DNA from: Egicoccus sp. AB-alg2
GTDB taxonomy: Bacteria > Actinomycetota > Nitriliruptoria > Nitriliruptorales > Nitriliruptoraceae
Length of the DNA stretch: 38,918 bases
Assembly (NCBI RefSeq): GCF_041821065.1
Contig: NZ_JBGUAX010000017.1
Coordinates: forward strand, 1 to 38,918
Direction: 5' to 3'
Shown here: positions 3,752 through 34,289 of the stretch, piece after piece
How positions within the stretch are numbered: the stretch's first letter is position 1
How the letters are laid out: the number at the start of each line of letters is the position of its first letter
Notes under the pieces: model-generated
Database searches by the model: none
What the model saw: only the letters and a program-made list of their open reading frames with translations
Told to the model about the DNA's origin: nothing
Made by a program: the position numbers and the translations under genes

Positions 3752-4315
3752 TCAGCAGTCGTGGTACACGGCAGCACTCACTATGGTTGCTGCTGCCTCG
3801 AAGGCGGCGATTCGAAGCCGGGACGTGATTGAACGTGGGGTCGCAACGGCTACGACTCGGACGTCTGCGTCGATGCAGCGGTGCATCAGTAGCCGGGTCC
3901 TGGTCACGTGGAAGTCGCTGGTGACGACTGTGATCTGGCTCCACCCACGATCGCGGGCCAGGGCGGCGACGCCGCGCGCCTCGTCCCAGGTGGACTCGGG
4001 GACGGGCCGCAGGCACCAGACCCGTGGCTCGTCGCAGTCTCCGCCGAGGCGCCCGTAGTCGTACTCGCTGCCAGCCGACAGCACCAGGTCCCGCTCGCCC
4101 GGCACGCCCGACAGAGCCAGACCAGCCGCCAGTCGCTCCGGATCACCGCCGAGAACCGCGACGGGGCCGTCCTCGAACGGCACGCCGGTCGGCGGCCACA
4201 GGTACAGCCAGGCCCACGCGCCGACGAAGCAGGTGGCCGCCACGGCGCCGGCGACCCACCCGCGACGCCGCGCGATGCCACGGCCCCGTCCGCGGCCAAC
4301 GGCGGCGTCATTCAT
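3752..4315 (-). CDS. YdcF/DUF218-family membrane-anchored protein (ElyC/SanA-like)
   Basis: The product is about 187 residues. An Arg-rich start is followed by one transmembrane segment (about residues 19-37, WVAGAVAATCFVGAWAWLYL). A DUF218-like domain follows, with AVLGGDPERLAAGLAL, a conserved acidic/Ser region (LVLSAGSEYDYG) and the TSDFHVTRTRLLMHRC motif. Relatives such as ElyC and SanA affect envelope and lipid-carrier homeostasis, but their chemistry is poorly known. The ATG at 4315 overlaps the 3' end of the DUF4012 gene by eight bases, so translation is probably coupled. A TTG at 4324 is the other option. Its position just upstream of the glycan genes suggests a role in surface polymer assembly, which is inference. 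Confidence 0.8.
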   Translation of the reverse strand: MNDAAVGRGRGRGIARRRGWVAGAVAATCFVGAWAWLYLWPPTGVPFEDGPVAVLGGDPERLAAGLALSGVPGERDLVLSAGSEYDYGRLGGDCDEPRVWCLRPVPESTWDEARGVAALARDRGWSQITVVTSDFHVTRTRLLMHRCIDADVRVVAVATPRSITSRLRIAAFEAAATIVSAAVYHDC

Positions 4316-6425
4316 CCAGATCAATGCCGCCCAGACGGATCACCAGGCTGGTGTCCGACGTCGTCCCGCCGTTCACGACGACCTGCCCCTCCCCATCCAG
4401 ACGTGCCTCGGCTGGTGCCGTCCCGGCCCGCGCCAGCACGGCTTCCGCCTGTCCGCGGCCGTCGAGTGCGACGTCGGCGACCTGCCACCCTTCGGGAGCG
4501 ACCACCTGGAGGTCGAGCTGGGTCGGGATGGCCTTGGACTGCTGCCACCAGTCGAGCTCGTAGACGAGATGACCGCGGTCCATGCTCGCCGGGGCGCGAC
4601 CCGTATAGCTGAACTCGAACGCAGCCCGGTCCTGGGGCGGCGTCGCGAGGAAGCGGTCGAAGACCTGCACGTCGCGGATCTGGCCCGTCCGGACCGACGG
4701 CGCAGCACCGTCGTCGGTCACCAGGTTGCTGCCGCGCGGGGCCCAGACGCTGAACCAGGTGCGGTTCTCGCCCGGCGGGCCCTCGAAGCAGCCGCTGTCG
4801 GTGCCCTGCGGCGTGCAGCTGCCGATGACGTAGAGGTCCATGCCATCCGACGGCAGTGGGTTGACCACCTCGACGCGCACGTCCACGTCACGGCGGACCG
4901 TCACGACGCCCTCGTCGTTCACCCGCGGATCGCTGAGCGTGATGTTCGCCGTGACGTGATGCTCCAGGTGGACGTCCTGCTTGCCGCCGACCGCGTTGTT
5001 GGCCGTGACCGACAGGAAGTCGGCGCCCTCGTCCGGGCCGAACGCGCCCGCGGCGCCCAGCTGCGTGAAGGCGGTCTGCTCCGCCTCGTCCCGGCTGAAC
5101 AGCTGCAGGTGCCGCTCGCTCGCCGCGTCGGCCAGTGCACGGGCGACCGCCACACCGTCCCAGCCGCCGTCGATCACCTGCGCGAAGGCCAGATCACCCA
5201 GCTGGCGCAGCACCAGCTTGCGTTCCGCGCTGCGGCCATCGCCGAGCACCTCGTAGACGTCCGCGGTCACGAATTGGGAGAACTGCTCCGGCGACAGGCT
5301 CGCCGGCACCTCGATGTCGCCCGCTACCTGGCCGGCCACGTCCGGCGGCAGCTCGAGGTCCGTCCCCATGGCGGTCAGCAGGTACTCCATGGCGATCGGG
5401 TCGATCAGGATCATCCCGTCGAGCGACTCGCCGGTCCGCACCTCGTACAGGTTGAGCGCGACGTCCGCCGTGGTCGGGAAGTCGGGATCCACGTTCACGT
5501 TGGAGAAGTGGCCGGCCGCCGCGACATGCCCGTAGCGCTCGGCGAACTCCGGATCCACGGTGGCCGCCTGGGTCACCTCGCCGTGCAGCTGGCCGATCAT
5601 GCCGGTGGCCGGGCTGTCGCCGTCGTCCAGCGCGTCGTAGACGTCGGAGCCCAGCAGCTCGAACCGGCCGTCCTCGACCTGCAGCACCGCGTAGTAACCG
5701 ATGAGCCCGCCGGTGCCGCGCAGCTCCGCCGGCGTCTGCACACCGAGGAAGTAGCGACGAGGTTCCTCGGCACCGACGAAGCCGGGCAGCGCGCTCAGCA
5801 GCTGCTGGCCATTGCCGATCAGGTCCAGGACCTGGTCGGCGGCGGTCAGGCTCTGCTCACGACCGTCGACCAGCTCCTGCGGCATCCAGCCGTGCCCGGC
5901 CTCCGCCAGCCGGGTGCGCGCCTCGGACAGGCGCTCCAGCGACAGGTCGTTGAGGATGTCGCGCGCCTCCAGCAACGGGGCGAGGTCGAGCCGGCCGTCC
6001 TCGACCCGGACGTCCAGGCCCGATCCGATCAGGCGCTCGCCGCGCTCCACGGCGGTGTCGGCGAGCTCGGTGGTGGCCGAGGCGACGCCGACGACCGCCC
6101 GGGTCGTGTGCACGCTGTGGCGCACGACCGGCAGGTTCGCCGCCATGCCCCACAACGGTCCGGAGGTCCGCGACCGCGCCGTGGCGAGTTCGCGCTCCGC
6201 ACGCCGGACGGCGTCGGAGGCGCGGGTCATGTCACCGGTGCCGGCGGCGGCCTGCACCTCGCTGAGGCTGGCCTGCGCCGCCGTCAACGACCGGCGCACG
6301 ACCAGGGCGTCACTGACGAACAGTGCGGCCAGGATGCCGCCGAGCAGCACGAGGCCACCCAGCAGCGGCAGCCACAGCCACGCGCGTCGCGGGCCGCGAC
6401 GGCGGCGGCCCTTGCGCTTGCGCAC
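4308..6425 (-). CDS. DUF4012-domain envelope protein
   Basis: The product is 705 residues. A basic N-terminus (RKRKGRRRRGPRR) precedes one transmembrane helix at about residues 15-38 (LWLPLLGGLVLLGGILAAL). A coiled-coil-rich region follows (TAAQASLSEVQAA, ASDAVRRAERELATAR), and then the large extracytoplasmic DUF4012 domain. The domain's hallmark is FLGVQTPAELRGTGGLIG near residue 227. DUF4012 proteins occur beside polysaccharide synthesis genes in actinobacteria and are thought to act in surface glycan assembly, but no activity is established. The GTG at 6425 is the only plausible start after an in-frame TAG at 6507-6509, and it lacks a strong ribosome site. The gene heads a minus-strand series running into YdcF and the sugar genes, probably one transcript. 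Confidence 0.85.
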   Translation of the reverse strand: MRKRKGRRRRGPRRAWLWLPLLGGLVLLGGILAALFVSDALVVRRSLTAAQASLSEVQAAAGTGDMTRASDAVRRAERELATARSRTSGPLWGMAANLPVVRHSVHTTRAVVGVASATTELADTAVERGERLIGSGLDVRVEDGRLDLAPLLEARDILNDLSLERLSEARTRLAEAGHGWMPQELVDGREQSLTAADQVLDLIGNGQQLLSALPGFVGAEEPRRYFLGVQTPAELRGTGGLIGYYAVLQVEDGRFELLGSDVYDALDDGDSPATGMIGQLHGEVTQAATVDPEFAERYGHVAAAGHFSNVNVDPDFPTTADVALNLYEVRTGESLDGMILIDPIAMEYLLTAMGTDLELPPDVAGQVAGDIEVPASLSPEQFSQFVTADVYEVLGDGRSAERKLVLRQLGDLAFAQVIDGGWDGVAVARALADAASERHLQLFSRDEAEQTAFTQLGAAGAFGPDEGADFLSVTANNAVGGKQDVHLEHHVTANITLSDPRVNDEGVVTVRRDVDVRVEVVNPLPSDGMDLYVIGSCTPQGTDSGCFEGPPGENRTWFSVWAPRGSNLVTDDGAAPSVRTGQIRDVQVFDRFLATPPQDRAAFEFSYTGRAPASMDRGHLVYELDWWQQSKAIPTQLDLQVVAPEGWQVADVALDGRGQAEAVLARAGTAPAEARLDGEGQVVVNGGTTSDTSLVIRLGGIDLDE

Positions 6426-6573: not shown

Positions 6574-7122
6574 TCAGGCGCTGACCTTGGCGTCCTCACG
6601 ACGCCGCAGGGCCAGCAGCCCCATGGCCAGCAGCGCCAGACCCACCGCGGTCAGCACGGTCACCTGCGAGCCGGTGAAGGGCAGGGTGCCCGTCCCGGTC
6701 CCGGTGCCCGGCGTCACGCCGACACCGGCGCCGTCGTCGTCACGAGCGTCGTCCTCGTCCTCGACGACCTCGACTTCGTCGCCGGCGGTACCGGACTCCG
6801 CGCCCACGACCGTGACGGTGATGGTCTCACCGGCGGCGTCCTGCGGCACGGCGAAGGAGAACGCGGCCTCACCCTGCGCGTCGGCGTTGAAGGTGTCCGT
6901 GTAGAACACCGTGGTGTGCTGCGCCGTCGCGACGAGCTCCTCGCCGCCCTGGGCGCCGACGACCGAACAGGTCACGGTGTCACCCGGCGTCGTCCAGGTG
7001 CCACAGCTGACGCCGAAGTCCTCACCCGGCGGGTACTGGGCGAAGGCAGTGCCGATGGACATCGCCATGACGGCGAGCGTCGAGATGGCGAGCACGACGA
7101 GCGAACGAATCCGCTTCTTCAC
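6574..7122 (-). CDS. Small LPXTG-anchored surface protein
   Basis: The product is 182 residues. A signal peptide covers residues 1-29 (VKKRIRSLVV start, cleavage after AFA). A compact extracellular domain follows with two cysteines (GVSCGTW, VTCSVV) that could form a disulfide. Next come an acidic linker (EVEVVEDEDDARDDD) and a Gly-Thr linker. The sorting signal is LPFTG (147-151), a hydrophobic helix and the RRRED tail, which directs covalent anchoring by a sortase. The GTG at 7122 was chosen because AGAGGA lies seven to eight bases upstream; a longer frame to 7161 would add 13 residues ahead of the signal peptide. No catalytic motif is visible. It is divergent from the SWT-repeat gene at 7507. 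Function unknown. Confidence 0.85.
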   Translation of the reverse strand: MKKRIRSLVVLAISTLAVMAMSIGTAFAQYPPGEDFGVSCGTWTTPGDTVTCSVVGAQGGEELVATAQHTTVFYTDTFNADAQGEAAFSFAVPQDAAGETITVTVVGAESGTAGDEVEVVEDEDDARDDDGAGVGVTPGTGTGTGTLPFTGSQVTVLTAVGLALLAMGLLALRRREDAKVSA

Positions 7123-7506
7123 AGGCTTTTCCTCTCCGTCCCCCGTTGAGCGGACCCCCACGAGGAAGTACGTCTTGCGTCGTATGCCTAGGTCAACTGA
7201 TCAAGTGCGGTGTCGACAGGCGGCGCCAACTCTAAACAACTCATCAACGAATTGTCACCCCTTGGCGGGCAGACGGCCGGCCACCATCCCCGCTCTGACT
7301 AGTCAGCGTGCGTTTCCCGCACGGAAGGATGGCGGTGCCCCGACCTGGGCGAGTACGAACGCGGGCAGCCTCCGCGAACGCGTTCCTCGGAAGGAGCGGC
7401 CGAAGGGTCGGGCAATCTTCACAACTACTCTCAGTGACATTCATGTACGCTGCGTGAGTTCCTAAGGAGCGTCCTCGCGGTTCGGGGGCTTGGAGAGGAG
7501 AACGCG
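7123..7506. promoter_or_regulatory. Divergent intergenic region (384 bp), probable promoters
   Basis: This region separates two divergent genes for exported proteins, so it should hold at least two promoters. It is less GC-rich than its surroundings near 7190-7250 and 7410-7470. A loose -35-like TTCACA near 7410 with AT-rich sequence behind it precedes the plus-strand gene, but spacing to any -10 is uncertain. GGAGAGGAG ends a few bases before the ATG at 7507 and is a strong ribosome site. I see no gene in it and no riboswitch I can name. Confidence 0.4.
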
Positions 7507-7935
7507 ATGGAACGCAAGACGGGTCGCCGGGTGTCGCGATGGCGCGCCCTCGTGGTCCTGGCCGCGCTCACCGGCAGCATGCTGGCCGGTGTCGGGGCGG
7601 CTGCTGCGGACGACGCAACGGCCACGTCTCGCGGCATCAGCTGGACGAGCACCGTCGACATCGTCGACTTCGTCGTGACGCCGACCCAGGGCTTCAGCTG
7701 GACCCGTGGCATCAGCTGGACCGCCTCGCCGGGCTTCAGCTGGACCCGTGGCATCAGCTGGACCGCGACGCAGGGAATCAGCTGGACCAAGGGCTTCAGC
7801 TGGACGGCCTCGCCGGGCTTCAGCTGGACCCGTGGCATCAGCTGGACCGCGACGCAGGGCATCAGCTGGACCAAGGGCTTCAGCTGGACCGCCACGCAGG
7901 GCATCAGCTGGACCAAGGGCTTCAGCTGGACCTGA
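7507..7935 (+). CDS. Secreted SWT-repeat protein, function unknown
   Basis: The product is 142 residues. A signal peptide spans residues 1-34 (basic start, hydrophobic RALVVLAALTGSMLAGVGAAA). The rest is a repeat: 13 copies of G-(I/F)-S-W-T. After a first copy at 43-47 and a non-repetitive linker (STVDIVDFVVTPTQ), the copies are arranged as five and a half units of 14 residues, G(F/I)SWT(R/K)-G(I/F)SWTA(S/T)(P/Q), running to the last residue. No other domain or cysteine is present. It has a near-ideal ribosome site and an immediate terminator, so it is probably monocistronic. SWT/SWN-type repeats occur as tails on some large secreted proteins, including S8 peptidases, but a free-standing repeat protein is not one I recognise. 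The regular Trp spacing suggests a beta-structured, self-associating or surface-binding fibre; this is inference. Confidence 0.85.
   Translation: MERKTGRRVSRWRALVVLAALTGSMLAGVGAAAADDATATSRGISWTSTVDIVDFVVTPTQGFSWTRGISWTASPGFSWTRGISWTATQGISWTKGFSWTASPGFSWTRGISWTATQGISWTKGFSWTATQGISWTKGFSWT
7690..7932 (+). repeat. 42-bp tandem repeats encoding SWT units
   Basis: About 5.8 tandem units of 42 bases, each made of two half units of 18 and 24 bases, all in frame. Every half unit contains the CAGCTGGAC core coding for S-W-T/D-type contexts. Neighbouring pairs are almost identical over 84 bases, which points to recent expansion by slippage or recombination. Copy number may vary between strains. Confidence 0.9.
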
Positions 7936-7964
7936 TCGGGGGCGCATTTCCGCCCATGATCTTC

Positions 7965-8009
7965 GCCGGCCGGCCACACTCCACGGGGTGGGCCGGCCGG
8001 CCCGTTTTC
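7965..8009 (+). terminator. Rho-independent terminator after SWT gene
   Basis: GCCGGCCGGCC at 7965-7975 pairs with GGCCGGCCGGC at 7991-8001, an 11-bp stem closed by a short loop. It is followed by CCGTTTTCT. The position is 30 bases after the stop, which fits termination of the SWT-repeat transcript before the histidine kinase gene. Confidence 0.85.
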
Positions 8010-8080
8010 TGAGACCGGCCTGACGGCGAGCGCGAGGACAAGCGATCAGCGCCAAGGTCGAACGCTACGTCGCGTTCTGG

Positions 8081-9841
8081 GTGTTGCTGGGGGTGGCGGC
8101 CCTCGGCGGCGTCATCCTGCTCACCGAGGTCCAGGCCCCCGACCTCGGCCCGCTGCTGCTGCTGGTGGCGGCCGTCGCCGTCGCCGAGCGCGTGGAGCTG
8201 CGCTTCACCTTCGAGCACTCCGACATCGCCATCACGCTCGTCGAGGTGGCCATCACCGCCGGGCTGCTGCTGGTGGCGCCGACCGAGGCGGTCGTGGCCA
8301 CGGGCCTGGGCATGATGATCGGCCAGGCCTCGCGCGTGCCGGACCTGGTCAAGGTCAGCTTCAACACCGGCCAGGCCATGGTCGGCACCGCCGTCGCAGC
8401 CCTGATCCTCCACTTCGGCCCGTCGATCGGGCCGCTGGTCAACGGCCGCGCCGTCGTGCTGGTGCTGCTCGGCATGGCCCTCTACGTCGCCGTGAACTCC
8501 CTGGCCGTGCTCGGCCTGCTCACGCTCGCCGAGCCCAGCGCCCGCGAGGGACTCGTGGGGCAGCTGCCGCTGGGCGCGATCTCGGCGCTCGGCAACGCCG
8601 CCATCGGGGTCGTGCTGGCCGCCCTCCTGGTCGTCCAGCCCGCGCTCGCGCCGTTCATCCTCGTCCCCGCCGCGGCCGTCTACCTCGCCGCCCGCGGGGC
8701 CCGGCGCACAGCCGACCTGCTCGGCCGCGTCCGCATCGACCGTGACCGGCTGACGCGCGTCGTGGACGGCACCATCGACGGCATCCTGCTGCTCGACCGC
8801 GACGGGGTCGTGCAGGTCTGGAACGCCGCCATGGAGGAGCTGACCGGCCTGTCCGCGGACCGGGTCGTGTCGCGGCCGGTCGCACGCGTGATGACCGAGT
8901 CGGTGCGCGAGGGCGACGGCGAGGTGGTGGGACGCTGGCTGATCGACGAGGCGCACGAGGGCGCCCAGCACCGCGAGTTCGACGCCCGCATCCGCCACGT
9001 CGACGGCACCGCCCGCGAGGTGCGCGAGAACCACTCGCTGATCTTCGACGATCGCGGCCGCTGCACCGGGGACGTGGTCGTGATCCGCGACGTGTCGCGG
9101 CAGCGCGAACTCGAGCGGTTGCGCGGCGACTTCGTGGCCCGCGTCTCGCACGAACTGCGGACGCCATTGACGCCGATCCGCGGCTTCGCGTCCGTGCTGT
9201 TGCGCAAGGGCGACCAACTCGACCCGGCCAGCCGACAGGAAGCGCTGGAGCGGATCGTGGAGCGCTCCGACCACCTCGCGGCAGTCGTCGAGGACCTGCT
9301 GCTGGTCACGCGACTGGACCAGCGCGAGGTCGACGAGCTGGTCCACCCGGTGCCGACCGACCTGGGGCCGCTGCTGGAACGCGTGGTCGACCACTTCCGC
9401 CAGCGCGAGCCGGGACGCACCATCGCCTTTTCCGCCTCACCCGGTACCGGCGAGGCACTGGCCGACCCGGCCCGCACCCGCCAGATCGTGACCTCGCTGC
9501 TGGACAACGCCTGCCGCTATTCACCCGAGGACACCCCGGTCGAGGTCACGCTGGACCAGGTCGGCGACGACATACGCGTCCGCGTGATCGACAGCGGGCC
9601 CGGCATTCCGCGCGAGAACCGTCAGGCCATCTTCGAGCAGTTCCACCGCCTGGAGGACCCCCTGACCATGCGCACCGGCGGGGTCGGTCTGGGGTTGTTC
9701 ATCGGTCGTCGCCTGGCCGCCGCCATGCACGGCGGTCTGGACCTGGACGAGCCCGCAGCCGCCGGAGGCAGCACCTTCGTCCTGCGTCTACCGGCCGCAG
9801 TACCCGTCGCCGGCATCGAGTCCCGCGATCTGACCGGGTGA
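8081..9841 (+). CDS. Membrane sensor histidine kinase with PAS domain
   Basis: The product is at least 586 residues. The first 200 or so form a block of about seven to eight hydrophobic helices. A PAS domain follows (about 225-340, RVVDGTIDGILLLDRDG), then a HisKA domain with FVARVSHELRTPLTPIRGF (phospho-acceptor His357), then a HATPase domain with the N box SLLDNACRYSP, G1 DSGPGIP and G2 GGVGLGLFIGRRLA. It should autophosphorylate and pass phosphate to a response regulator, none of which is adjacent. The annotated GTG at 8081 has no ribosome site and cuts into the first helix. The frame is open from 8024, and GAGGA at 8034-8038 precedes an ATC at 8045 that would give ISAKVERYVAFW before the helix. 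The real start may be that unusual codon. Confidence 0.9.
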   Translation: MLLGVAALGGVILLTEVQAPDLGPLLLLVAAVAVAERVELRFTFEHSDIAITLVEVAITAGLLLVAPTEAVVATGLGMMIGQASRVPDLVKVSFNTGQAMVGTAVAALILHFGPSIGPLVNGRAVVLVLLGMALYVAVNSLAVLGLLTLAEPSAREGLVGQLPLGAISALGNAAIGVVLAALLVVQPALAPFILVPAAAVYLAARGARRTADLLGRVRIDRDRLTRVVDGTIDGILLLDRDGVVQVWNAAMEELTGLSADRVVSRPVARVMTESVREGDGEVVGRWLIDEAHEGAQHREFDARIRHVDGTAREVRENHSLIFDDRGRCTGDVVVIRDVSRQRELERLRGDFVARVSHELRTPLTPIRGFASVLLRKGDQLDPASRQEALERIVERSDHLAAVVEDLLLVTRLDQREVDELVHPVPTDLGPLLERVVDHFRQREPGRTIAFSASPGTGEALADPARTRQIVTSLLDNACRYSPEDTPVEVTLDQVGDDIRVRVIDSGPGIPRENRQAIFEQFHRLEDPLTMRTGGVGLGLFIGRRLAAAMHGGLDLDEPAAAGGSTFVLRLPAAVPVAGIESRDLTG

Positions 9842-9947
9842 AATAGCGCGTCGTGCTACCGTCATGGCACGGTCTTTGCGTTGGGGCAAGTTGGCATGGA
9901 CCGCCGGGGACATTAGGCACCCACCGCCCACGCCAAAGGACGCGCAC

Positions 9948-10361
9948 ATGGCACGCAAGATGAGTGACGATCACAAGGCGGCACTCGCCAAAGGCCGCGC
10001 ACAGGGACGCGCCGTTCGCGACTACCTCGCCGCCCTCGAGCAGGACCGCAAGCCCGGCCGTCGTATGGATGCGGACACCGTCAAGTCCCGCATCGAAGAA
10101 GTGCAACAGAAGATCGACGCCGAGCCCGACCCGGCCAAGCGCGTGGAGATGATCCAACGCCGCCTCGACCTCGAGGAACGCCTGGTCAACATGGCGGAGG
10201 ACGTCGACCTCGAAGCACTCGAGCAGGGCTTCGTCGACGCCGCCGCGGAGTACTCGGAGCGCAAGGGCATCACCTACACCGCCTGGCGCGAAGCCGGCGT
10301 CCCGGCGGCCGTGCTCAAGCAGGCCGGCATCCGGCGCACGCGCCGCACCAACGCGGCCTGA
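9948..10361 (+). CDS. Conserved small helical protein of unknown function
   Basis: The product is 137 residues, basic and almost wholly helical. It starts ARKMSDDHKAALAKGRAQGRAVRDYL, has a long charged central helix (SRIEEVQQKIDAEPDPAKRVEMIQRRLDLEERL) and ends with a small domain, GITYTAWREAGVPAAVLKQAGI, before a basic tail. The ending looks like a compact DNA- or protein-binding fold of the kind seen in conserved actinobacterial hypotheticals. No enzyme motif is visible. The ATG at 9948 has AAAGGA seven bases upstream; an in-frame ATG at 9864 would add 28 unlikely residues. A strong terminator follows. A nucleoid or ribosome-associated role is possible but unsupported. Confidence 0.8.
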   Translation: MARKMSDDHKAALAKGRAQGRAVRDYLAALEQDRKPGRRMDADTVKSRIEEVQQKIDAEPDPAKRVEMIQRRLDLEERLVNMAEDVDLEALEQGFVDAAAEYSERKGITYTAWREAGVPAAVLKQAGIRRTRRTNAA

Positions 10362-18729: not shown

Positions 18730-20400
18730 ATGAGCGCCACCCCCGCGGTCCGTGACCAGGCGCTGGCGGTCCCCGCCACGCCGGGGCTGGACGCCCTGTT
18801 GCGCCGGGGTCGGCGGCGGGTGCGGCGGGTGCGGTTCACCGACCGGGTCGGACCGGTCGTGGCCGTGGCGGCGGGCGCGGCGCTGGCCTGGACGCTCGTG
18901 TCGAGGTTCGTGCTGCTACCGGCGGTGACGTGGTGGGTGCTGGCCGGCTGCGCGGCCGCGGCGGTGCTGGTGCTGGCCGGGGTCGGCCTGCGACGGATCC
19001 CCGACGAGGTGGCGGCCGCGGCCGTCGACGGGCTGCTGGCCGCCAAGGACCGCTACCGCACCGCGTGGGAGCTGCGCGAGCAGGGCCGGCTCGCCGGTGC
19101 GTTGGACGGGCTGGCGCGCCGGCAACTGGTCGAGGCGGACACGGCCGCGGCCGGCGTGCGGACCCTGCCGTCGGCGCACCGCCCCGAGGGCCGCTGGCTC
19201 GTCCTCGCGCTGGTGCTGAGCGTGGCGGCCGGGGCGCTGGCCTTCGCGCCCGACCCGCACGCGGCCGAGCGCGAGCAGCGGGCCCGTGAGGCCGCCGCCG
19301 TCGAACGGGTCACCGAGGACCTGGAGCGGGCCGCCGAGGAGCTGGCCGAACTGGGCGAGCCCGGCGCGGCCGCCGCGGAACGCCTGCAGGCGCTGGCCGA
19401 GCAGCTGGACGGCCGCAGCCTGGAGCAGGCCCTGGAGGAGCTGGCGGCCGCCCGCGGCGAGCTGGCCCGCGAGCTGGACCCCGACCGCAACGGCCGCCGG
19501 GCCGCACTGGACGGGCTGGCACGGGAGCTGGGCCGCGACCCGCTCGCGCCCGGCGACTCGGTGCGGGCGCAGCTCGACGCGCTCGCCGGGGCGCTGGCCG
19601 CCGGCGAGGTGGACGATCCGGCGGCGCTGGCCGAGCGGCTGCGCGAGCTCGCCGAGGCGATCGCGGGCGGCCAACCCGAGGTGGCCGACGCCCTGCGCGA
19701 GGGCGCCGAGGCGCTCGAGGGCGGCGACCAGGCGGCTGCCAGCGGCGCGATCTCGTCGGCCTCGGGTGCGGTCGGCAACGCGGTCGCGTCGGCGGCCGGG
19801 CAGGGCGCGCTGGAGGCGACCGACGGCGTGCTGGGCCAGGCCCAGGGCAACCTGCGCGACGCCGCCCGCGGCGAGGGCCAGGGGCAAGGCCAGGGCCAAG
19901 GCCAGGGCCAAGGCCAGGGACAGGGCCAAGGGCAGGGGCAGGGCCAGGGCCAAGGCCAAGGCCAAGGCCAAGGCCAAGGGCAGGGCCAAGGGCAGGGGCA
20001 GGGGCAAGGGCAGGGGCAGGGCCAGGGGCAGGCCGGGCAGGGCGGCGGCGGGCAGGGCATCCAGCCGGGCGACGGCAACACCGGCACCGGCCAGGCCGAC
20101 GGCGCCGGCTCCGGCCAGGGCGCCCACGGCGACGGCCCCGAGCTGGACACCGTGTTCGCGCCGCCGCGGGTCGGCGGCGAGGACGACGAGTGGTACCTCG
20201 GCGGCCAGGACTCGGGTGCCGGCCCGGACGCCCAGGTCGGCAAGGCGCTGGGTCCGGGGGACGTCAACGGCGCGCTGGTGCCCTACCTCGACGTCCTCGG
20301 GACCTACCGCGACCTCGCCACGCGCACGATCGACCGGCCCGGCTTCCCCGCGGGCCGGCGCGATCTGGTGCGCGACTACTTCGACCAGCTCGCGCAGTGA
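18730..20400 (+). CDS. Membrane coiled-coil protein with Gly-Gln dipeptide tract
   Basis: The product is 556 residues. Two membrane helices lie near 38-82 (VVAVAAGAALAWTLVSRFVLL and WWVLAGCAAAAVLVLAGVGL) and a third near 158-176. About 200 residues of Ala/Glu/Leu heptad-rich helix follow (ERAAEELAELGEPGAAAAERL and onward). An uninterrupted tract of 26 Gly-Gln dipeptides spans 383-434. The Gly-rich link leads to a conserved-looking C-terminus (VPYLDVLGTYRDLATRTIDR, then RRDLVRDYFDQLAQ). Similar Q/G tracts occur in DUF4175-like envelope proteins, and the C-terminal motif recurs in proteins next to MoxR/vWA genes, as far as I recall. It probably acts as a membrane scaffold for the module; no enzymatic motif. 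Confidence 0.8.
   Translation: MSATPAVRDQALAVPATPGLDALLRRGRRRVRRVRFTDRVGPVVAVAAGAALAWTLVSRFVLLPAVTWWVLAGCAAAAVLVLAGVGLRRIPDEVAAAAVDGLLAAKDRYRTAWELREQGRLAGALDGLARRQLVEADTAAAGVRTLPSAHRPEGRWLVLALVLSVAAGALAFAPDPHAAEREQRAREAAAVERVTEDLERAAEELAELGEPGAAAAERLQALAEQLDGRSLEQALEELAAARGELARELDPDRNGRRAALDGLARELGRDPLAPGDSVRAQLDALAGALAAGEVDDPAALAERLRELAEAIAGGQPEVADALREGAEALEGGDQAAASGAISSASGAVGNAVASAAGQGALEATDGVLGQAQGNLRDAARGEGQGQGQGQGQGQGQGQGQGQGQGQGQGQGQGQGQGQGQGQGQGQGQGQGQGQAGQGGGGQGIQPGDGNTGTGQADGAGSGQGAHGDGPELDTVFAPPRVGGEDDEWYLGGQDSGAGPDAQVGKALGPGDVNGALVPYLDVLGTYRDLATRTIDRPGFPAGRRDLVRDYFDQLAQ
19876..20031 (+). repeat. Hexanucleotide repeat coding for (Gly-Gln)26
   Basis: 156 bases made of GGN-CAR hexamers, with GGC/GGG and CAG/CAA mixed. 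Exact hexamer identity is broken by synonymous changes, so the dipeptide pattern is kept at the protein level while perfect slippage tracts are avoided. That mixture suggests selection for the protein repeat rather than neutral expansion. Confidence 0.95.
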
Positions 20401-30225: not shown

Positions 30226-30255
<30 letters not shown>

Positions 30256-30318
30256 CGCCGTGCTCGGGTCGCGGGAAGGATGACGCCGTGCTCGGGTCGC
30301 GGGAAGGATGACGCCGTG
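30226..30318 (+). repeat. 28-bp tandem repeat at selA/selB junction (3.3 copies)
   Basis: Three exact copies (30226-30253, 30254-30281, 30282-30309) plus nine bases of a fourth (30310-30318). The first copy is the last nine codons of selA. Each copy ends in GGGAAGGAT followed by GACGCCGTG, so every junction recreates a Shine-Dalgarno sequence seven bases before a GTG. The first two such GTG codons (30260, 30288) open the same seven-codon frame ending in TGA. The third (30316) opens a 31-codon frame that runs into the selB start. Confidence 0.97.
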
Positions 30319-30411
30319 TCAGATGGCGGGAGGCGCGCGGCGGAGCCATCCGGCGGGGTGCCGGTGACCGAACGCCCGATGTCGGGGACGCTCGTGGCAC
30401 ATGGGGAGTAG
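30316..30411 (+). CDS. Possible 31-residue leader peptide overlapping selB start
   Basis: A GTG at 30316 sits seven bases after GGAAGGA and opens 31 codons (starts VSDGGRRAAEPSGG) that end in TAG at 30409-30411, inside the first codons of selB but in another frame. Its ribosome site is far better than that of selB, so reading it could couple or limit SelB translation. It might equally be the ancestral start region of selB after a frame-breaking duplication, or a chance frame. No similarity recognised. Confidence 0.3.
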   Translation: MSDGGRRAAEPSGGVPVTERPMSGTLVAHGE

Positions 30412-32311
30412 TGCCATACACCGGACGATCGTGACGGCAGGGCACGTCGACCACGGCAAGTCGACGCTGGTCCGCGCGCTCACCGGCATGGAGCCCGACC
30501 GCCTCGAGGAGGAGCGCCGCCGCGGCCTGACGATCGAGCTGGGATACGCGTGGACCGACCTCGCCGATGCGGGCGGGGGGCGGGTCGCGTTCGTGGACGT
30601 GCCGGGCCACGAGCGGCTGGTCCGGACGATGCTGGCCGGAGCCGGGACGGCGCCGGCCGTGCTGTTCGTCGTCGCGGCTGACGACGGCTGGTCGGCGCAG
30701 TCGTCCGAGCACCGTGACGTGCTGGACCTGCTCGACGTCCCGGCCGTGGCCGTCGCCGTGACCAAGTGCGACACGGTGCCCGAGGCGCGGGTGCAGGAGG
30801 TCGTTGACGACCTCGCGGCCCGCCTCGCCGACACCGCCCTGGCTGGCGCGCCGGTCGTGTGCACGGACGCGCGGAGCGGACGCGGGCTGGGCGACCTGCG
30901 CCGGGTCCTGGCGGCCGGCGTGGCCGCGCTGCCGGCACCGGCGAGCGGCGGCCGGCCACGGCTGTGGGTCGACCGGTCGTTCGCACCGACCGGGGTCGGC
31001 ACCGTCGTCACCGGGACGCTGACCGGTGGCGCACTGACGACCGGCGACGAGCTCACCCTGCTGCCCGCCGACCGCCGGGTCCGCGCCCGCGGTCTGCAGG
31101 CGTTGGGGGCGCCGGTCGAGACCGCCGTCGCGGGTATGCGGGTCGCGCTGGACCTCGCGGGGGTGGCACACACCGAGGTGCAGCGCGGCGACGCCCTGGT
31201 CGCGGCCGGCCCGTGGCGTACGACGACGCTGGTCGACGTCTGGGTCCGGGCACTGCCCGGGCACCGGATCGACCGTGCCGGTGCCTGGACGCTCCACGCC
31301 GGCACGGCCGCCGTCGGCTGTCGCGTCCTGCCGCTGGACGGGGCCGTCGAGGGCCCGTCCTCCGGGGCGGTCCGGCTGCTGCTGCAGGCCGAACTGCCGC
31401 TGGTCGCCGGCGACCGCGTGGTCCTGCGAGAGGCCGGTCGCCGCGCGACCGTCGGCGGCGGGGTCGTCGCCGACCCGCTGCCCGGGCGCCGGCCCCGCGG
31501 CACGCGCGCGCGAACCGAGCTCGTCCAGGCACTGCAGACGGTCGTCGCCGCCGCCACGGCAGAGCGACGCCTGGTGGCCCTGCTGGAGGTGCCCGGCGCC
31601 GCCCACCGGCCGGTCGGTGACGCGCTGGCCGCCGTCGGGGCCCCGGCGGACGCGCCGCTGCCAGCCGGCGTCGTGCGGGTCGGCGACCGTCTGGTGGCCA
31701 AGGGGCGCGCCGAGGACTGGGCGCGCGGCCTGACCGCGTCGCTGGGGCCCGGCACGCACGAACGGGCGACCGTCGTCGCCACCGCCGTGCGCGCCGGAGC
31801 GCCCACCGAGGTCGCCGAAGCCCTGGTCGAGGCGCTCACCCGCGGGGGGCGTCTCGTGCGGGCCGGCGGCGGGCTGGCGCTGGCCGAACACGCCAGCGCC
31901 GCCTCGGCCGCGGTGTCCGGCCGTGCCGGCGCGCTGCTGGCCGACCTGGCCGCCGACCCGTTCGCTCCCGAGCACCTCGACGTCCTGGCCGCCCGCTACG
32001 GCGTCGACCACCGCCTGCTCACCGCGCTGGTCAACCGGGGCGAGATCGTGCGCACCGGCGACGTCGCCTTCGCGCGCACGGCGGTGCGGCGGGGGGTCGC
32101 GCGGCTCGCCACGCTGGAGGACGAGGTGGGGCCGTTCACGGCGGCGCAGGCCAAGACCGCCTGGGCGACGACCCGTCGTTACGCGATCCCGCTGCTCGAG
32201 CACCTCGACGCGGCCGGCATCACGGTCTTCGACGGTCGGTTGCGGCAGCTGACCGCGAAGGGCCGGGCGCTCGCCGCCGAGGACGTCGCCGGCACCACCG
32301 CGGATGACTGA
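30401..32311 (+). CDS. selB: Selenocysteine-specific elongation factor SelB
   Basis: The product is 636 residues. The GTPase domain has G1 GHVDHGKS (14-21), the switch region with RGLTIELGYAW, G3 DVPGH (66-70) and G4 TKCD (121-124). The beta-barrel domains 2 and 3 follow (LWVDRSFAPTGVGTVVTGTL and onward). The C-terminal third has winged-helix repeats that bind the SECIS hairpin of the mRNA, ending KTAWATTRRYAIPLLEHLDAAGITVFDGRLRQLT. It brings Sec-tRNA to the ribosome at in-frame UGA codons. The ATG at 30401 is the first possible start in frame, but it lacks a good ribosome site, whereas the upstream repeat has several. Translational coupling to selA or to a short leader is likely. Confidence 0.95.
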   Translation: MGSSAIHRTIVTAGHVDHGKSTLVRALTGMEPDRLEEERRRGLTIELGYAWTDLADAGGGRVAFVDVPGHERLVRTMLAGAGTAPAVLFVVAADDGWSAQSSEHRDVLDLLDVPAVAVAVTKCDTVPEARVQEVVDDLAARLADTALAGAPVVCTDARSGRGLGDLRRVLAAGVAALPAPASGGRPRLWVDRSFAPTGVGTVVTGTLTGGALTTGDELTLLPADRRVRARGLQALGAPVETAVAGMRVALDLAGVAHTEVQRGDALVAAGPWRTTTLVDVWVRALPGHRIDRAGAWTLHAGTAAVGCRVLPLDGAVEGPSSGAVRLLLQAELPLVAGDRVVLREAGRRATVGGGVVADPLPGRRPRGTRARTELVQALQTVVAAATAERRLVALLEVPGAAHRPVGDALAAVGAPADAPLPAGVVRVGDRLVAKGRAEDWARGLTASLGPGTHERATVVATAVRAGAPTEVAEALVEALTRGGRLVRAGGGLALAEHASAASAAVSGRAGALLADLAADPFAPEHLDVLAARYGVDHRLLTALVNRGEIVRTGDVAFARTAVRRGVARLATLEDEVGPFTAAQAKTAWATTRRYAIPLLEHLDAAGITVFDGRLRQLTAKGRALAAEDVAGTTADD

Positions 32312-33859: not shown

Positions 33860-34020
33860 CGCTCCCTCCGCTCTCCTCGGTCGGCGGAACACTAGGCCGG
33901 CCAATCCGGTCTGACTAGACCATGTTTGTACGAATCCTCCGAAACGCGCGCCCGCCGGATCCCCGGAGACCCCGACCCGCCGCCGACCGTCAGCGATCTC
34001 CCTCGGCGCCCCCGGGCGCG

Positions 34021-34216
34021 TGAGCGCGCAACGGTCGCGGCTGACCGCCCCCGGACGGCACCCAGGCGCGACCGTTGCCGACAGACGCGACAGAGCCGAG
34101 GCAACGCGACCGAACCGAGGCAGCCCGACCGAGCCGAGGTAGCCCGCCCGGTCGCGTGAACGCGCAACGGTCGCGGCTGACCGCCTCCGGGCGGCATCCA
34201 GGCGCGACGGTTGCCG
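34021..34216. repeat. Duplicated 60-bp palindromic element
   Basis: Two near-identical 60-base copies at 34021-34080 and 34157-34216, 136 bases apart, differing at only about seven sites. In the first, GCAACGGTCGCG (34028-34039) is the exact reverse complement of CGCGACCGTTGC (34067-34078), so each copy can fold into a hairpin with a 27-base loop. The second copy has one mismatch in its stem. This resembles a REP-type extragenic palindrome. Confidence 0.9.
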
Positions 34217-34289
34217 GGAGGTGCGACGGAGTCGAGGCAGCGCGACGGAGTCGAGGCAGCGCGACGGTTGCCGGGAGGTGCGACCGGGC
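34082..34289. repeat. 19-bp imperfect tandem units around the palindromes
   Basis: Between the two 60-bp copies lie three 19-base units of the form GACNGANCCGAGGNANCNC. After the second copy come two identical 19-base units built on GCGACGGAGTCGAGGCAGC and two copies of GCGACGGTTGCCGGGAGGT. The unit length is constant at 19, and the GCGAC start is shared with the palindrome arms, so all may derive from one element. Confidence 0.8.

Follow-up and report, generated by a model that had tools for sequence, protein, structure and literature searches.

Agr- and Com-type peptide-sensing two-component systems combine the gene of an exported peptide with an adjoining gene for a polytopic histidine kinase. 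A different membrane input is used by the 5TMR sensor kinases (5TMR-LYT, e.g. YpdA), which have an S-component fold with an extra first helix and an outside N-terminus (PMC11109136). Among Gram-positives, sensor kinases with the S-component fold are almost all found in Bacillota, and a term search of the same paper returned no mention of a peptidase or of genomic context (PMC11109136). The locus described here lies in a stretch of 38,918 nucleotides from the actinobacterium Egicoccus sp. AB-alg2 (hereafter the window) and consists of an exported tryptophan-repeat protein followed by a sensor kinase (Table 1).

The repeat gene, its orthologues and its surroundings

An earlier note made from the sequence of the window had described a free-standing, secreted protein of 142 residues with 13 G-(I/F)-S-W-T units in a strict alternation of six and eight residues. 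The open reading frame bears out the length, the signal-peptide-like start that would direct secretion, and the 13 units, which begin at residues 43, 62, 68, 76, 82, 90, 96, 104, 110, 118, 124, 132 and 138. The alternation holds from the second unit on, with spacings of 6 and 8 alternating 11 times; unit 1 stands apart, 19 residues before unit 2 and separated from it by a non-repetitive step. Tandem Repeats Finder placed the array at 7679-7932, with a period of 42 nt and a score of 331. The signal-peptide-like start is kept in the orthologues, as read from their sequences, and its cleavage site is putative.

The protein was also said to be Cys-free, to carry no other domain and to belong to no described family, and all three points stood. 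It contains no cysteine, nothing in Pfam or NCBIfam reached the cut-off, so that a known repeat family was ruled out at that level, and its single-sequence structure model, which is beta-rich (pLDDT 63), had no significant match among PDB folds (best E 0.18). Among the sub-threshold matches, the BNR/Asp-box repeat scored 10.4 bits against a Pfam gathering score of 27, and an NCBIfam serine-rich match (17.4 of 650 bits) was rejected as compositional. Pfam detected no Peptidase_S8 domain in the 142 residues.

Three of the four genomes of the genus carry the repeat gene, the other two orthologues having 71% and 55% identity; the fourth genome (77% complete) is without the repeat gene and the kinase at the thresholds used. 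One orthologue is built of GISWT units and the other of GISWV units, the motif counts being 11 and 13. Because the gene, the signal peptide and the motif recur in two genomes while linkers and copy number vary among the three orthologues, the repeat gene is not a product of chance. Beyond the first gap, every one of the 31 spacings counted over the three orthologues is an even number of residues (6, 8 or 10). A protein-pattern search of the genome contigs for close relatives of the repeat protein found none.

The kinase gene lies directly 3' of the repeat gene, about 110-145 bases on, in all three genomes carrying it, and the upstream neighbours differ among them. In the window, the divergent neighbour (6574-7161, minus strand) encodes a secreted protein that bears an LPFTG sorting signal, its Gram_pos_anchor match being just above the cut-off, and adjoins a DUF4012 protein gene (4308-6425). 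In the other two genomes the repeat gene has neither of them as a neighbour. On the 3' side of the kinase, a small ORF (9864-10361, plus strand) without a Pfam match has 79-87% identity in the other two genomes and is a conserved third gene of the locus.

Upstream, about 50 bases of leader and the TACGCTGCGT box, which may function as a promoter, are kept in the three orthologues. The ribosome site, GGAGAGGAG, which had been noted as strong, is a good one. The leader matched no Rfam family; a structured RNA was rejected as a candidate, with no Rfam match at the gathering score and one chance-level miRNA match. The claim of an own terminator held in part: a hairpin at about 7965-8001 is followed by CGTTTTCT, the stretch 7936-8016 folds at -46.7 kcal/mol (z -3.9) and the hairpin is present in both orthologues, but the strict terminator scan listed none after the repeat gene. 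Judging from this terminator-like hairpin between them, the repeat gene and the kinase may be transcribed separately.

Other repeats were noted elsewhere in the window. A 28-base unit is repeated 3.3 times with no mismatch at 30226-30318, ending just 5' of a SelB-like elongation factor gene (30401-32311); ARAGORN found no tRNA in the window. A 136-base tandem repeat with internal 19-base units occupies 34011-34284, and a GQ-repeat protein (18730-20400, plus strand), whose gene has GGCCAG units over about 174 bases (19870-20043), is encoded beside ABC transporter and MoxR-like ATPase genes.

Table 1. Features of the locus in the window, and genes preceding the kinase orthologue in other genera of the family
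Feature	Genome	Position	Strand	Basis or remark
Candidate promoter -10/start region, TACGCTGCGT	window	7446..7455	+	10/10 bases identical in three orthologues (5' alignment)
Conserved 5' leader, GGAGCGTCCTCGCG ... CGGGGGC	window	7456..7506	+	alignment of three 5' regions
Ribosome site GGAGAGGAG	window	7492-7500	+	precedes repeat gene
Exported Trp-repeat protein	window	7507..7935	+	ATG start, 142 aa ORF
Signal-peptide-like N-terminus, residues 1-34	window	7507..7608	+	RRVSRWR, hydrophobic stretch, GAAAA before DD
First, isolated motif RGISWT	window	7630..7647	+	motif spacing analysis
Array of 12 G-(I/F)-S-W-T units, 6/8 alternation	window	7687..7932	+	Tandem Repeats Finder and spacing analysis
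GC-rich hairpin and T-run between repeat gene and kinase, terminator-like	window	7965..8011	+	folding energy
Partner sensor histidine kinase, ~586-598 aa	window	8045..9841	+	candidate starts ATC 8045 or GTG 8081
Membrane sensor domain, predicted ECF S-component-like fold	window	8045..8743	+	structure model, Foldseek, VIA-align
PAS domain of kinase	window	8750..9094	+	Pfam
HisKA and HATPase_c domains of kinase	window	9122..9796	+	Pfam
Small ORF ending ...TTQGLSWLGLSWL	G010			5' of kinase orthologue
Small ORF ending ...TPQGISWF	G023			5' of kinase orthologue
Small ORF ending ...IQAWSWFR	G012			5' of kinase orthologue
42-aa protein ending AGWVWIR	G022, G027			5' of kinase orthologue
GISWLGAIWTS repeat ORF	G015			5' of kinase orthologue

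The partner kinase and the predicted fold of its sensor domain

The sensor domain was modelled from five sequences (the window and MAGs), giving a pLDDT of 84.8 and a pTM of 0.81. The model has an extra N-terminal helix (residues 3-27) and a beta-hairpin between helices. Foldseek matched it to RibU with a probability of 1.00, ThiT, FolT and BioY being also among the best PDB matches, at E-values that are weak (0.014). With VIA-align, the top 22 rows were all membrane components of ECF-type transporters, at Z 9.6-13.7 on a scale where helical models can reach a chance Z of about 13, and the next value was 6.9. The predicted S-component fold is likely, being supported by the coverage, by the uninterrupted series of matches to a single fold and by the fall in Z that follows.

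The Pfam family of 5TMR-LYT (PF07694) gave no match to the sensor domain up to E 1 for the domain alone and E 0.1 for the whole kinase. The N-x-R motif between helices 1 and 2 is absent, the segment AVAERVELRFTFEHSDIAITLVEV containing no Asn, and the Ala pair of AXXXA in helix 1 is not conserved in the profile of the domain (A2 profile). The domain is fused to PAS-HisKA-HATPase and not to an EcfA/EcfT module. MASE9 (PF20972) matched sensor residues 55-165 with 16.8 bits (E 0.0066), below its gathering score of 24.3. Given the missing 5TMR match and the sub-threshold MASE9 match, the sensor appears to be another family sharing the S-component fold.

Pairing with Trp-motif genes across the phylum

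The kinase orthologue is also kept in other genera of the family, where its 5' gene is a shorter exported ORF of 42-88 aa, in some cases ending in a single Trp motif (QGISWF, GLSWL, GWVWIR; Table 1). In three more distant members of the same family (G004, G008, G020) the gene 5' of the kinase encodes a subtilase whose C-terminus carries Trp repeats such as (SGWRW)n, (GKSWA)n or (GRSWI)n. A related-locus search with the sensor domain returned four loci, all in Nitriliruptoraceae MAGs and all duplicates of loci already counted. One genome has both forms (L113, G003): a free-standing GISWV protein paired with its kinase and, next to another sensor, a Trp-tailed subtilase.

We ran the A2 profile of the membrane sensor domain over 396 actinobacterial genomes, of which 66 contained the domain, and read 80 of the resulting loci for their 5' gene. 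By a strict count, an S8 subtilase with a Trp-dense tail stood directly 5' on the same strand at 39 of the 80 loci; further Trp-motif genes were contig-edge, free-standing and short forms. In the proteins tested, Pfam confirmed Peptidase_S8 in the subtilases and HK or GGDEF-EAL in the sensors, whose outputs across the phylum are histidine-kinase or GGDEF/EAL fusions. The tailed subtilases are about 400-730 aa long, and the nearest NCBIfam model, T7SS mycosin, stayed below its cut-off. Within the tails, 537 of about 640 spacings are exactly 5 residues; Gly is the commonest residue at -3 from Trp (48%) and S, R or T occupies -1 in about half of the units, so that the G-I-S-W-T of the repeat protein fits the same motif. 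Like the tails, the repeat protein has G-x-(S/R/T)-W-x units and is encoded directly 5' of an S-component-like sensor gene. For the tails, a pentapeptide-repeat fold was discarded because Pfam found no such model in the subtilases that carry them. In the libraries searched, no curated family matched the Trp-tail family or the sensor domain above threshold.

The association fades with weaker sensor matches: counting edge and free-standing forms, a Trp-motif gene was present at 15, 16, 12 and 8 of 20 loci in successive quartiles of sensor score. Between 20 and 30 of the 80 sensor loci, chiefly those with the weakest matches, showed no Trp gene. Of the 41 loci that lacked the subtilase form, 10 had a short exported ORF with Trp near its C-terminus, e.g. 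the 29-residue MKRIYFRIAAVLATLAALFVSSGAGVHWR; two control placements gave 1 and 2. A reverse test with six TGG codons spaced 15 bases apart gave matches in 134 of the 396 genomes, many of which probably fall in other frames, the control columns showing the noise. Among the listed positions, arrays lay beside the sensor in G003, G010, G047, G120, G225, G308, G389, G127, G088, G102, G361, G094, G146 and G282; G385 has a GNTW array and no sensor above threshold. Unusual arrangements were seen at L129 and L141 (family f3), where at least two Trp-tailed proteins (GWSWH, GWGWD units) alternate with sensors in a row, and at L073 and L081, where the Trp-tailed protein, subtilase-like in L073, is 3' of the sensor instead of 5' and has SRSSWS-type units. 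Searches of open-licence papers found no description of the pairing of a Trp-motif gene with this sensor, and those on MASE9, Trp repeats and subtilases, GGDEF with S8 and Nitriliruptor kinases returned nothing about it.

Divergence of the subtilases correlates with that of the sensors (r 0.55, p 0.0002); the pair is therefore inherited as a unit. For the tail residues the correlation with the sensor was r 0.12 (p 0.02), falling to a partial r of -0.06 once the subtilase distance was removed. The residues around Trp thus show no co-variation with the sensor beyond shared inheritance, and nothing points to pair-specific recognition. We built a quick tree of 90 sensor domains, with SH-aLRT support and no bootstrap. 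Among subtilase-tailed loci, the free-standing forms of the family grouped together (SH-aLRT 94), in a cluster that also takes in one locus without a recognised Trp gene. A second free-standing form, with EVRWN units (L063), belonged to a fully supported group that contains subtilase-tailed loci. The well-supported branches force the free-standing label to change at least 6 times. The protease thus comes and goes and is dispensable, and the Trp motif stays; both the pairing and the repeated absence or loss of the protease part are established.

Proposed function and comparison with known systems

We propose, with a probability of about 0.6, that the repeat protein is exported and serves the adjacent kinase as ligand or input subunit, being the tail-only form of its partner. 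After export and removal of the signal peptide, the G-x-S-W-T string would act outside the cell, its units engaging the outward side of the S-component-like membrane domain, possibly by docking of Trp into the sensor cavity, and thereby setting kinase activity. For most of the phylum, a pentapeptide-Trp tail on a subtilase would deliver this input, and the presence, state or self-cleavage of the protease could be what the sensor reports; in the lineage of the window the protease is absent, leaving the tail alone, multiplied to 13 units. As both 5-residue and 6/8-residue spacings occur, which argues against a single rigid repeat fold, the units would be recognised one by one. A tentative and less probable extension is that this signalling is phylum-wide in actinobacteria, the Trp of exported repeats, on subtilase tails or free-standing, docking into a receptor of S-component fold and controlling histidine-kinase or cyclic-di-GMP output; ligand class and receptor family would then both be new.

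The earlier note favoured an abundant secreted fibre, adhesin or carbohydrate-binding lattice; such a structural product would act independently of the kinase. In its favour, the even spacing of the 31 later units would line up all Trp residues along the same face of an extended strand, and the model is beta-rich; this one-face idea was dropped for the subtilase tails, whose period of 5 breaks the rule. The structure prediction suggested for finding a beta-solenoid or stacked-Trp fibril gave a low-confidence model (63) without significant match to a solved fibre (best E 0.18). The gene is fixed beside a sensor kinase in the genus, in strict genetic coupling, Trp-tailed subtilases precede the same sensor, and a fibre would be hard to build from the relatives of 42-88 aa at the same position, which have as few as one Trp motif. 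We therefore regard a fibre as very improbable; the gene probably encodes the dedicated outside signal or input subunit of the sensor.

The other readings keep a link to the kinase. An exported chain cut into GISWT-type peptides, which would diffuse to other cells and be read there by the adjoining kinase, would account for the tandem near-identical units, their variable copy number and the adjoining polytopic kinase, and forms with a single C-terminal motif resemble one-copy precursors. Such a multi-copy pheromone is nevertheless unlikely, since within the genus the linkers (TR, TK, TATQ, TASP) lack a uniform cleavage site, the gene has no dedicated exporter or processing protease beside it in the lineage of the window, and across most of the phylum the units are part of a subtilase of about 400-730 aa. 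Somewhat less likely still is that the Trp tail holds the subtilase, or itself alone, on the wall or membrane surface while the sensor monitors the state of the envelope, the pairing being regulatory without contact. C-terminal Trp-rich repeats on an exported protease do fit a retention device, and the conserved leader and hairpin suggest regulated transcription, but anchoring alone leaves unexplained why cargo-less free-standing tails persist beside the sensor in several separate lineages, and the minimal forms of 29-43 aa comprise little beyond a signal peptide and a motif. Adjacency could also reflect co-regulation alone.

With the proposed ligand or input role, an orphan repeat protein becomes one end of a widespread, undescribed gene pair, in which natural protease-less forms reveal the Trp motif as the part kept. 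If the motif is the ligand, it would be a proposed protein ligand for receptors of S-component fold and would connect actinobacterial kinase and cyclic-di-GMP signalling with an exported protease. The minimal natural partners (29-43 aa) suit direct binding tests.

Systems in which a membrane sensor reads an exported partner are known; as far as we found, the ligand class and the subtilase link have not been described. The sensor domain resembles 5TMR-LYT in its predicted S-component fold with an extra N-terminal helix and in its fusion to HK or GGDEF/EAL outputs, but differs in having no match to the Pfam 5TMR-LYT model and no N-x-R in the helix 1-2 region. Its predicted fold is that of the ECF S-components RibU, ThiT, FolT, BioY and NikM (Z 9.6-13.7 over 150-188 residues), from which it departs in its identity of 8-20% and its fusion to a kinase, and its similarity to MASE9 is weak and below the gathering score. 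At the same gene position, the Trp-pentapeptide tail is a feature of subtilases, whereas the repeat protein has no protease domain. As in Agr- and Com-type systems, the gene of an exported peptide adjoins that of a polytopic sensor kinase; here the kinase family and the membrane domain are different, no dedicated maturation gene is present, and the exported product is a tandem Trp motif.
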